A stretch of DNA of 37,396 nt from Halorubrum halophilum. GTDB taxonomy: Archaea > Halobacteriota > Halobacteria > Halobacteriales > Haloferacaceae. Shown in pieces: positions 16,647 through 37,310 of the stretch (position 1 is its first letter; each line of letters begins with the position of its first letter). A program made the position numbers and the translations under genes. The DNA lies in the NCBI RefSeq assembly GCF_000739595.1, contig NZ_BBJP01000033.1, forward strand, positions 1-37,396. The letters are read 5' to 3'. Below the pieces are notes generated by a model, which had not been told where the DNA came from, searched no databases, and saw only the letters and a program-made list of their open reading frames with translations.

Positions 16647-16985
16647 GATTGCGAGAGTGGGTGTTGCAGATCGATGGCGACGAGACGGTATTTAAAAAGA
16701 CGTGAGCGACGGCGACGAACGGTTATAAATGAACGAGGCGGTGGCGCGCCCCGGTGAGCGGCCCTTCGGGCCGCGAACCGCCGGTGAGAGGGAGTCAGTC
16801 GCCCGGAGCAACGCGGAGGGCGACTGACGAGGCTGGGGAGGCGTGAGGCTGTGCGGTTGCGGTGCGGCTGGGGCTTTGGAGGTCTTCACCGTGCTGTCTG
16901 AGACTTATAAACAGCCGATAGCAACGCCACTCGATCGCTTATAAACAACCGTTTCACAAATTCGTTATACCTACTCCCACCATCG
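16647..16985 (+). repeat. Structured intergenic repeat, copy A (short form)
   Basis: Fills most of the 502-base gap between the DUF460 gene and panB. Left end GAGAGTGGGTGTTGCAG, then TTATAAAT (16723-16730) and, 27 bases on, hairpin P1 at 16752-16780 (loop CTTCG; internal GA/GA). Hairpin P2 pairs GTCAGTCGCCC (16794-16804) with GGGCGACTGAC (16818-16828). Conserved block GAGGCTGGGGAGG follows. The third hairpin is missing: its 5' half is deleted but the 3' block GGCTGGGGCTTTGG remains, ending TCACCG at 16887-16892. Two more TTATAAAC boxes and the right end CCTACTCCCACCATCG follow. Left part matches copy D closely, right part matches copy C. Confidence 0.85.
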
Positions 16986-17047
16986 CTCGCGGAGATATCC
17001 GTACTGACCGCGCCCGGGACAGAGCGCGTCTCCTTCGACAACCCCGG

Positions 17048-22610: not shown

Positions 22611-22950
22611 CTTATAAAGACTGTGTGGTGGCGTGCGCCGGTGAGCGCCGCAACGCGGCGCGAACCGCCCGCACGAGGGAGTCGGTGGTCCGGAGCGAAG
22701 CGGAGGACCACCGACGAGGCTGGGGAGGCGTGAGGTGCGGTTGCTGTGCGGGGCGGGGTGGGACTCAAAGGGGCAGCCGGCGAGGCGGGCGCAGGCGACA
22801 CAAGCACCGCAAGGAGCGAACGGAGTGAGCGACTGAGGAGCGCGGCGAGCGTGCGCCCGCCTCGCCGGCTGGGGCTTTGCAGGTGTTCACCGCCGATCTG
22901 CCGTCAACCGTTTATAAGCGAGCGGCTGGAGCCATCACACTCACAATCGA
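22611..22950 (+). repeat. Structured intergenic repeat, copy B (long form)
   Basis: Occupies most of the 435-base gap between alaX-type and dodecin genes. CTTATAAAG (22611-22619) is 27 bases before hairpin P1 at 22639-22667 (loop AAC, internal GA/GA). P2 pairs GTCGGTGGTCC (22681-22691) with GGACCACCGAC (22705-22715). P3 pairs CAGCCGGCGAGGCGGGCGC (22774-22792) with its exact 19-base complement at 22853-22871, flanked by CAAAG/CTTTG (22766-22770, 22875-22879) with a GGG/GGG internal loop. The P3 loop holds GGAGCGAACGGAGTGAGCG. The block ends TCACCG near 22893; then TTTATAAGCGAGCGGCTGG. No terminal inverted repeat was found. Confidence 0.87.
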
Positions 22951-28401: not shown

Positions 28402-28955
28402 GAGGTTTAAACAGCGATGAGCGACAGCGATGATCGCTTCTAACAAACAGCGCGGTGGCGCGCCCCGGTGAGCGGCCCGAAGGGGCGCTCACCGACGGTG
28501 CGAGGGACGCGGTGAGCGCTCGGAGAGCGCGAACCGCGAGGCTGGGGAGGTGTGAGGTGCGGTGCGGTTGCGGGCGGGTGGGACTCAAAGGGGCAGTTGC
28601 CGGCGGCTTCGCCGCCGGCTGCCAGAGGCGCAAAGCGCCTTGCTGCCGCGAGGGCGCCGCAGGTGACGTAAGGACCGCAAGGAGCGAGCGACGCGAGCGA
28701 CCGAGGACCGCAGCGAGCGTGCGGCGCCCTCGCGGCTGGGGCTTTGGCGATGTTCACCGCGGAGGCAACGGCTTATAAGCGAGCGGCTGGGGCTTTGGCG
28801 ATGTTCACCGCGGAGGCAACGGCTTATAAGCGAGCGGCTGGGGCTTTGGCGATGTTCACCCCGCCGTCGACGACGTATAAACACTCGATAGCACCACCAC
28901 TCGATCACGTATAAACGACTACTCTCCCGTATCGACATACCTACTCCCGCTATCG
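28402..28955 (+). repeat. Structured intergenic repeat, copy C (longest)
   Basis: Occupies most of the 774-base gap between hisD and the methyltransferase. A weak TATA (TTCTAACAA) is 27 bases before hairpin P1 at 28466-28494, whose arms GGTGAGCG and CGCTCACC pair fully. P2 is at 28508-28538 (CGCGGT/ACCGCG, internal GA/GA, GCGCTC/GAGCGC). P3 pairs CCGCGAGGGCGCCGC (28646-28660) with its exact complement (28721-28735), flanked by CAAAG (28586-28590) and CTTTG (28742-28746). Two further hairpins at about 28599-28640 are inserted inside. Then follow the 51-base tandem units, ATAAAC boxes, and the end ACCTACTCCCGCTATCG (28939-28955). The remaining 145 bases to 29100 hold no gene, only the promoter described at 29101. 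Confidence 0.88.
28732..28860 (+). repeat. 51-bp tandem repeat, 2.5 units
   Basis: Units start at 28732, 28783 and 28834 with GCGGCTGGGGCTTTGGCGAT; the third ends after 27 bases at GTTCACC. Each full unit also holds GCTTATAAGCGA. Copy B carries one such unit followed by a degenerate start of a second. Identical units imply recent duplication. Confidence 0.95.
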
Positions 28956-29100
28956 ATCAAGCGGCGGTTTTCCGCGACCCGCTATTTCGGACGAGAACCA
29001 CCTACAGAAGAGGATTTCAGCGGATCCGAAGGAGAATACATCCGTTCTTTAAACGGACGCCGTCCGACGGCGTTTTACCTCTTTGCTCCAGTCACTACAC

Positions 29101-31967: not shown

Positions 31968-32321
31968 GGTGAGGACCTCCAAAGCCCCAGCCGCGCTCGG
32001 CTCCCACAGCTCGCTGCGGTCCTCGGTCGCTCGCGTCGCTCGCTCCCTGTGGTCCTTACGTCGCTGGGGTTCGCCGAGCGCGGCTGCCCCTTTGAGTCCC
32101 ACCCGCCCGCAACCGCACCGCACCTCACACCTCCCCAGCCTCGTCGGCGCGGCGCTTATAAGCGCCGCGCCGACTCCCTCGCGCCGTCGGTGAGCGCCCC
32201 TTCGGGCCGCTCACCGGGCGCGCCACCGCCGTGTTCATTTATAAGAGGTCGTCGCCATCACTCATGTCTTTTTAAATACGCTCTTGCCATCATCGATCTG
32301 CAACACCTACTCCCGCTATCG
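31968..32321 (-). repeat. Structured intergenic repeat, copy D (inverted)
   Basis: Fills most of the 550-base gap between the Tat protein and the nicotinamidase, in reverse orientation to A-C. The left end carries ACCTACTCCCGCTATCG (32305-32321) as the + strand sequence, then TTTATAAG (32237-32245) 27 bases before P1 (32188-32216, same sequence as copy C). P2 is a perfect 32-base palindrome at 32143-32174 with TTATAA at its centre. P3 pairs GCCGAGCGCGGCTG (32073-32086) with 31988-32001, and the block ends GGTGAG at 31968-31973. No recognisable gene is inside it. The rest of the gap shows nothing else. Confidence 0.87.
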
Positions 32322-36973: not shown

Positions 36974-37310
36974 CGGACAGAGGGAGCCCGACTCCCGTGC
37001 CTCTGGCATGAGGAAAGTCCCCCCACCGGCCGGACAGGCGACCGGGCACACGCCCGGAGTCGGAGACGGCTGGCTCTGGAACAGCAACGACACCCCCCAC
37101 CCCGACCCGTGATTCGCGCGAACCGACCCGCAAGGGAAGGGAGCTAACCCGATGAGGGCGCGTGGCTTTGCCACGTTACAGACGGGTGGGAACGGATGGA
37201 ACGGCGAATCCTCGCCGGTGCAAGTCCGCGCCACAAGGTAGTCCGGCCACGGCGCGGACGCTCAGCCGAATGTCGGGACGAACCGAAGGGGGCTTACTCC
37301 CCTCAGTCCG
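36974..37310 (+). ncRNA. rnpB: RNase P RNA
   Basis: The catalytic RNA of RNase P, which trims the 5' leader of tRNA precursors. Diagnostic CR-I sequence GAGGAAAGTCC is at 37010-37020, and near the 3' end comes AACCGAAGGGGGCTTACTCC, the conserved pairing partner. The outer helix P1 is visible as CGGACAGAGGG (36974-36984) with CCCTCAGTCCG (37300-37310). Other family landmarks are GGTGCAAGTCCGCGCC and ACAAGGTAGTCCGGCC. CCTTATT at 36944-36950 is 27 bases upstream of the proposed 5' end. Type A archaeal form; ends are predicted to within a few bases. Confidence 0.93.

Follow-up and report, generated by a model that had tools for sequence, protein, structure and literature searches.

Mobile intergenic hairpin repeats across haloarchaea share a covarying core that may fold as RNA

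In most of the haloarchaea sampled an intergenic repeat recurs dozens to nearly two hundred times per genome, with hairpin stems that differ in sequence and keep their pairing. The best overall explanation, to which we assign a probability of about 0.55 on sequence evidence, is that these repeats are haloarchaea-wide mobile intergenic elements in which the plus strand of the main hairpin, P3, is selected to fold, likely as RNA. The further proposal that they constitute an undescribed class of large structured RNA across the Haloarchaea, occupying from tens of loci to nearly two hundred in each genome, built of Watson-Crick steps and tandem G.A pairs and swapping domains with pairing preserved, is advanced more tentatively, at somewhat less than even odds. 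If right, one of the commonest non-coding features of haloarchaeal genomes, present in 60 of the 77 genera sampled, has been overlooked, and mobile repeats that keep an elaborate fold over class-level divergence bear on the open question whether repeats of the REP kind are selfish DNA or RNAs with a function. Because each genome holds many natural compensatory variants of one fold, its structure, partner and function are directly testable, also in haloarchaea with existing genetics if the repeat is present there.

The window, the whole stretch of 37,396 nucleotides analysed here, is contig 71 of a 3.68-Mb Halorubrum genome (G000) and contains four copies of the repeat, A, B and D on the plus strand and C on the minus strand. 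Read in the sense direction, the 5' half comprises an optional terminal repeat with TATA-like boxes, GCGGTGGCG, the hairpin H1, GAGGGA, the hairpin P2 and GAGGCTGGGGAGG, and the 3' half comprises a GCGGT-rich linker, GGGACTCAAAGGGGC, P3, GGGGCTTTGG and a 3' unit of 51-57 bp that is often in tandem. The parts of the four copies are located as follows.

About 16647-16988, plus strand: copy A, overall
16647-16673, plus strand: copy A, left terminal inverted repeat
16738-16793, plus strand: copy A, H1 domain
16794-16828, plus strand: copy A, P2 hairpin GTCAGTCGCCC..GGGCGACTGAC
16829-16879, plus strand: copy A, GAGGCTGGGGAGG, a short linker, then GGCTGGGGCTTTGG
16969-16988, plus strand: copy A, right terminal inverted repeat
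22625-22883, plus strand: copy B, overall
22625-22680, plus strand: copy B, H1 domain
22681-22715, plus strand: copy B, P2 hairpin GTCGGTGGTCC..GGACCACCGAC
22716-22728, plus strand: copy B, fixed block GAGGCTGGGGAGG
22760-22883, plus strand: copy B, complete P3 module (covariance model R1, 124.1 bits)
28404-28958, plus strand: copy D, overall, the stretch flagged by the first-pass annotation
28452-28507, plus strand: copy D, H1 domain, GCGGTGGCG..GAGGGA, its inner hairpin the CGGTGAGCGGCCC/GGGGCGCTCACCG variant
28508-28537, plus strand: copy D, P2 hairpin CGCGGTGAGCGCTCGGAGAGCGCGAACCGC, with tandem GA/GA within the stem
28538-28550, plus strand: copy D, fixed block GAGGCTGGGGAGG
28580-28594, plus strand: copy D, fixed block GGGACTCAAAGGGGC, the 5' strand of the P3 basal helix (CAAAG)
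28597-28644, plus strand: copy D, nested insertion of a double-hairpin module at the foot of P3
28645-28736, plus strand: copy D, P3 rod hairpin with arms 28645-28661 and 28720-28736
28734-28884, plus strand: copy D, fixed block GGCTGGGGCTTTGG and three tandem 51-bp 3' units, each ending at a TATAA box
28939-28958, plus strand: copy D, right terminal inverted repeat ACCTACTCCCGCTATCGATC
31976-32316, minus strand: copy C, overall
32294-32316, minus strand: copy C, left terminal inverted repeat
32175-32229, minus strand: copy C, H1 domain
32143-32174, minus strand: copy C, P2, a 32-base perfect palindrome GTCGGCGCGGCGCTTATAAGCGCCGCGCCGAC
32130-32142, minus strand: copy C, fixed block GAGGCTGGGGAGG
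31976-32100, minus strand: copy C, complete P3 module (R1, 110.7 bits)

Copy A is truncated and is without the GGGACTCAAAGGGGC block and the 5' arm of P3. The inner helix of P3 in copy D consists of 2-bp Watson-Crick steps with tandem G.A pairs between them, and R1, a covariance model built on P3 as the main hairpin of the family, matches it at 28625-28750 with 98.9 bits. The blocks that the first-pass annotation had described as common to the copies, GAGGCTGGGGAGG, GACTCAAAGGGGCAG and GGCTGGGGCTTTGG, all lie where expected. Its reading that the P2 stems differ is borne out by GTCAGTCGCCC/GGGCGACTGAC in A and GTCGGTGGTCC/GGACCACCGAC in B, although the stems are not unrelated and fall into four or five types. 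The 32-base P2 palindrome that it placed in D belongs to the minus-strand copy, its letters C and D being swapped relative to ours, and the copy at 28402 instead has CGCGGTGAGCGC..GCGCGAACCGC. The arms of P3 are indeed perfect: in this copy (D) the pairing runs over 17 bp, in B over at least 16 bp and in C, on the minus strand, over 13 bp; the first-pass annotation had given 19, 15 and 14 bases for its copies B, C and D.

Copies are dispersed in the genome, a point of comparison with integron attC sites, which belong to clustered cassettes beside an integron integrase. The 13-mer GACTCAAAGGGGC occurs, with up to 2 mismatches, at 185 places in the Halorubrum genome against 61 for a reversed control, and a first survey found the family in 34 of 34 Halorubrum genomes. 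The 20-base block GGGACTCAAAGGGGCAGYCG has 110 matching stretches in the GTDB genome collection, and among the 80 matches listed all are Halorubrum records, including the metagenome-assembled 'uncultured archaeon A07HR67'. In keeping with the first-pass annotation, which recognised no named family, none was found. Rfam release 15, searched at gathering thresholds over the window, matched only an RNase P RNA elsewhere and none of the element copies; that archaeal RNase P RNA gene lies at 36976-37308 on the plus strand (RF00373, 178.5 bits). A permissive Rfam search of one copy returned two chance-level matches only, and a literature search that included the conserved 11-12-mers as text, with most subscription journals outside it, found no description.

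The case for selection on pairing is carried by two alignments, A1, of 91 P3 modules from the host and other Halorubrum genomes, and A2, of 63 P3 modules from 12 non-Halorubrum genomes, in both of which covariation exceeds shuffled and slid controls, as the first-pass annotation had expected of compensating change. The counts are made without phylogenetic correction and the slid-partner controls preserve relatedness: A1 has 22 of its 27 pairs changed on both sides, 90.3% paired cells against 74.6% when shuffled, 359 doubly changed cells against 109 +/- 11, and a covariation score of 0.410 against 0.155 for shuffled and at most 0.07 for slid partners. The corresponding values for A2 are 20 of 27 pairs, 97.8% against 75.2%, 328 against 78 +/- 8, and 0.536 against 0.140. 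Most informative is the inner helix of P3, where varying pairs are embedded in invariant sequence. The A1 column pair 49-95 is CG in 69 modules and GC in 22 without exception, 56-89 is GC in 46, AU in 33 and GU in 11, and 64-84 is CG in 51, GC in 24 and UA in 11. This helix forms a rod in which tandem G.A/A.G pairs alternate with steps of two base pairs, and it has one A.A (or A.C) mismatch whose flanking pairs covary.

Invariant tandem G.A pairs likewise punctuate the helices of the element at large. H1 follows a rule of a 3-bp outer stem, GA/GA, a 5-7-bp inner stem and a loop of 3-4 nt, which 115 of 164 heads obey against 25 expected from chimeras of two copies, and differences within each of the four or five P2 stem types are compensated. 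The basal helix of P3 is CAAAG/CTTTG in Halorubrum and GAAAG/CTTTC or GGAAG/CTTCC in other genera; these are therefore compensated variants. The first claim of compensating change at every pair needs correction in that part of the difference between copies comes from whole-hairpin exchange and nested double-hairpin insertion, in addition to point-by-point compensation. Palindromic insertion alone, named in the first-pass annotation as the explanation that would undo its own, fails for the inner helix, in which single pairs switch between C-G, G-C and U-A in invariant sequence, and is partly correct for H1, for P2 and for the double hairpins that have been inserted, all of which change places as whole modules. 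Since sequence varies freely and pairing is kept, the folded single-strand shape is what evolution protects; the structural claim holds, and its extent had been underestimated.

The pairing also distinguishes the two strands. A duplex cruciform tolerates G.T and A.C alike, so the excess of G.T in H1 and P3 indicates that the plus strand folds as a single strand. In Halorubrum the ratio of G.T to A.C is 20 to 3 in the unique set of H1 and 32 to 8 in unique P3 arms (17 to 6 minus the most wobble-rich position), and P3 arms in other genera give 15 to 3. Over all pairs of A2 it is 31 to 5 and in the inner helices of A1 26 to 5; over all assigned A1 pairs it is only 59 to 43, which we attribute, after the fact, to the misalignment, at columns 31-35, of a second P3 type, which has tandem G.A there and supplies most of the A.C. 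P2 has no G.T excess (3 to 5). An unfiltered hairpin scan, in which chance hairpins were dominant, gave 11 to 10, and anchored tests took its place. In unpaired conserved columns G-to-A change is at least as frequent as C-to-T, so mutation bias would push opposite to the G.T excess. The MFE of the plus strand is -156.7 kcal/mol against -135.8 kcal/mol for the minus strand, and the plus-strand MFE fold recovers the GA-punctuated helix. These observations fit either RNA or single-stranded DNA as the folded plus strand, with RNA favoured because of the elaborate non-canonical architecture and because some carriers are free of Y1 transposase. Counting against RNA are the roughly 2% of P3 copies in which the inner segment is inverted, a DNA-level event. 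Three copies with the inner segment inverted between the arms are L055:12469-12593 (-), L066:6207-6328 (+) and L172:4917-5038 (+); in those of L055 and L066 the model matches both strands. On the same side of the balance, TATA boxes lie at variable distances near Halorubrum copies, and none was seen upstream of the copies sampled in other genera; the lack of an orientation preference in the tandem gaps of G000 and the outward P3 pairs of G058, described below, also weigh against RNA.

In the mechanism that we propose, the core of the element is P3, a rod of about 120 nt that runs from GGGACUNRAAGGGGC through a variable stem and the GA-punctuated inner helix to GGGGCUUYN. Selection would act on single-strand folding of the plus strand, both in P3 and in H1 upstream of it, most probably as a transcribed RNA that may have a cellular role, and stem sequence would be free because the stems serve as spacers. 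What a trans-acting haloarchaeal protein would recognise, we infer, is probably the G-rich internal loop at the base of P3 together with the fixed single-stranded blocks, the A.A mismatch and the tandem G.A pairs. The elements themselves act as non-autonomous mobile repeats, as is shown by their presence or absence and either orientation at orthologous sites and by the terminal inverted repeats of some Halorubrum copies, and their hairpins would be exchanged by recombination between fixed blocks; replacement of whole modules is observed in orthologs, and gene conversion would be the presumptive route.

Searching other haloarchaea with a covariance model, the check that the first-pass annotation had suggested, gave R1 matches in 163 of 243 haloarchaeal genomes and 60 of 77 genera (E <= 1e-4), and 12 non-Halorubrum genomes have 5 to 79 matches each at E <= 1e-6. 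Outside Halorubrum P3 takes the form GGGACTGAAAGGGGC...GGGGCTTTC or GGGACTGGAAGGGGC...GGGGCTTCC. Full H1-P2-P3 elements are present in G149, G224, G175, G036, G041 and G115, and the sampled copies of G228, G232, G194, G225 and G147 consist of P3 without the GGCTGGGGAGG block. A blastn search of annotated plasmids with a Halobaculum-like copy matched 11 haloarchaeal records, from Halobaculum, Halorussus, Haloarcula, Natrinema, Halorientalis, Haloplanus, Halobacterium and one further haloarchaeon; nine of the matches lie over no feature, one under a hypothetical protein and one in an unannotated record, and the two examined both fall between annotated genes. No RNA or repeat is annotated over the matching stretches of the public records checked. 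A Halorubrum copy or block had no match in phage, plasmid and viral collections, and neither phage records nor viral contigs yielded a P3.

Comparison of orthologous loci indicates that hairpins are exchanged as modules and that elements come and go. At the hisD site, which holds copy D, an element is also present in G004, G012 and G007 and is absent at other Halorubrum loci with readable flanks, in some of which gene order differs; hisD is 94% identical between G000 and G004, and their elements differ in H1, in P2 and in the inserts of P3. At a second locus, site A, the flanks are common to G070 and G007 and P2 is nearly identical, but P3 is replaced by the other type and H1 has received a double hairpin of about 50 nt; the complete element that G068 carries there lies in the opposite orientation, and G031 lacks an element. 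The type of double-hairpin module carried by copy D is itself present or absent between G070 and G007 at this site. About one third of the copies read locally bear the inverted repeats GATCGATAGCGGGAGTRGGT / ACCCACTCCCGCTATCGATC, and most copies, as well as those of all other genera examined, are without them. Sequence similarity runs on past these repeats, so that they are only putative ends of the element, and no clear target duplication was seen. The left-end motif has 66 genomic occurrences, and those read locally nearly all adjoin a core or form its right end. In the distant genome G058, P3 pairs face outward in 13 of 13 cases (L463-L476) and inward in none, and most enclose one H1-P2 unit; outward pairs occur in further genera as well (L381, L389, L390, L393, L401). 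In the closest such pairs a spacer of only 31-34 bp, containing ACCCG...CGGGT, separates the two P3s.

Several known repeat systems share part of this description. REP hairpins are 20-40 nt long, carry a GTAG motif and are accompanied by a Y1 RAYT. Like the REP, BIME and REPIN sequences of bacteria, the repeat numbers over 100 intergenic hairpins in a genome, pairs up in inverted orientation across short spacers, builds mosaic composites and disperses although it has no genes of its own; unlike them, P3 is about 120 nt long, has a conserved covarying inner helix, a kind of internal fold with which REPINs are not described, and can occur without Y1. The Y1 transposase is evidently not a requirement, as PF01797 was not found in the carriers G015, G018, G149, G058, G086 and G041. 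The family recalls MITEs in the terminal inverted repeats that some Halorubrum copies bear and in the existence of a 126-bp form without a core. It differs from them in that most copies have no terminal repeats and in that, in the 23% of the genome read, no autonomous partner was seen and no occurrence of these repeats spanned a transposase. The core-less form, at L044:18975-19100 (+), has both terminal inverted repeats and perhaps arose by deletion between two TTATAA-flanked direct repeats. HEARO, a large multicopy structured RNA of bacteria, is similarly structured, covarying, multicopy and able to spread within genomes; unlike HEARO, the present repeat has no associated protein gene that we found and no Rfam match.

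The strongest alternative, which we regard as rather unlikely, is that the family is mobile DNA of the REPIN or PATE kind, in which P3 is the single-stranded DNA hairpin end acted on in trans by a transposase and the fold is selected for transposition, with no RNA function. Presence, absence and changed orientation at orthologous sites fit this alternative, as do the outward P3 pairs at the ends of composites in G058, which resemble transposon ends, and the strand asymmetry, G.T wobble being stable in folded single-stranded DNA too. Copy number and nested insertions are also like those of the PATEs of Haloquadratum walsbyi, whose palindromes match the ends of IS605 transposons, and their SMR-A insertions (PMC3119063). 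Compared by description rather than by sequence, both families are haloarchaeal, non-coding, high in copy number, palindromic, heterogeneous, interrupted by smaller repeats and inserted in a species- or strain-specific manner, here with filled and empty orthologous sites; P3 differs in having a covarying internal fold, with which PATEs are not reported (PMC3119063), and in its absence from tnpB loci and the failure to find Y1 in the six carriers. Those six genomes, the absence of TnpB from G058 and the 0 of 30 tnpB loci with P3 argue against the transposition account, and so does the elaborate inner helix, kept across genera in many copies beyond the apparent needs of an end hairpin. The intergenic repeats of halovirus HF2 are haloarchaeal as well, but these are viral, promoter-bearing and 29-58 bp long (PMC8707807), and P3 was not found in phage or viral collections.

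Placement of the copies bears on a second alternative. With genes called by our own codon-usage script and an overlap cut-off of >60 nt, 0 of 60 copies overlap a predicted gene in 834 kb (23%) of G000, in stretches picked because they contain copies. Convergent gaps are enriched for copies (28 of 58 gaps, OR 4.2, p 8e-7), and a Halobaculum salinum copy occupies the gap between two convergent genes. Bacterial REP sequences have been proposed to act as cis barriers or as stabilisers of 3' ends, and the placement could reflect a comparable 3'-region element, a cis transcription barrier or mRNA 3'-end stabiliser between convergent genes. We consider this improbable. Neutral insertion that spares promoters gives the same convergent enrichment, and copies in the tandem gaps of G000 show no orientation preference, with 10 sense and 10 antisense. 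The 30 copies of G058 avoid genes likewise, and their convergent bias is weak (OR 2.2, p 0.09), though 9 of 12 in tandem gaps are sense.

Less probable still is a purely mutational origin, in which template switching would maintain the complementarity of the arms without selection. Replacement of whole stems between orthologs, the short loops in many sequences and the inverted inner segments are in its favour. Perfect hairpins of at least 9 bp, on the other hand, have a density of 1.83/kb in intergenic DNA associated with the element; elsewhere in the genome they are about 20 times rarer in intergenic DNA, at 0.08/kb, and reach 0.07/kb in coding DNA. This places the hairpins far beyond chance and rules out a genome-wide palindrome habit. 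Copying of arms would erase the tandem G.A and A.A mismatches, which persist amid varying stems, and would not account for the skew of G.T to A.C in H1 and P3. The idea that the repeats are guide-RNA scaffolds of an IS605-type TnpB, or relics of transposons of that type, can be set aside: IS605 elements are numerous in haloarchaea and leave non-coding remnants (PMC3119063), but R1 has no match in 30 tnpB loci (93 kb), and G058, with 79 P3 copies, gave no match to PF07282.

Some minor forms of the element were also seen. Downstream of the hisD start in G011 (L080), a lone left end with two TATA-like boxes stands where G000 has the full element, and an apparent tandem duplication of the start of P3 beside an N in L081 is probably an assembly artefact. 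Double-hairpin modules like that of copy D consist of two hairpins and a short fixed linker (e.g. TGCCAG) and are found in either orientation at several insertion points, inside H1, P2, the linker or P3 of other copies; they are possibly small mobile repeats in their own right.
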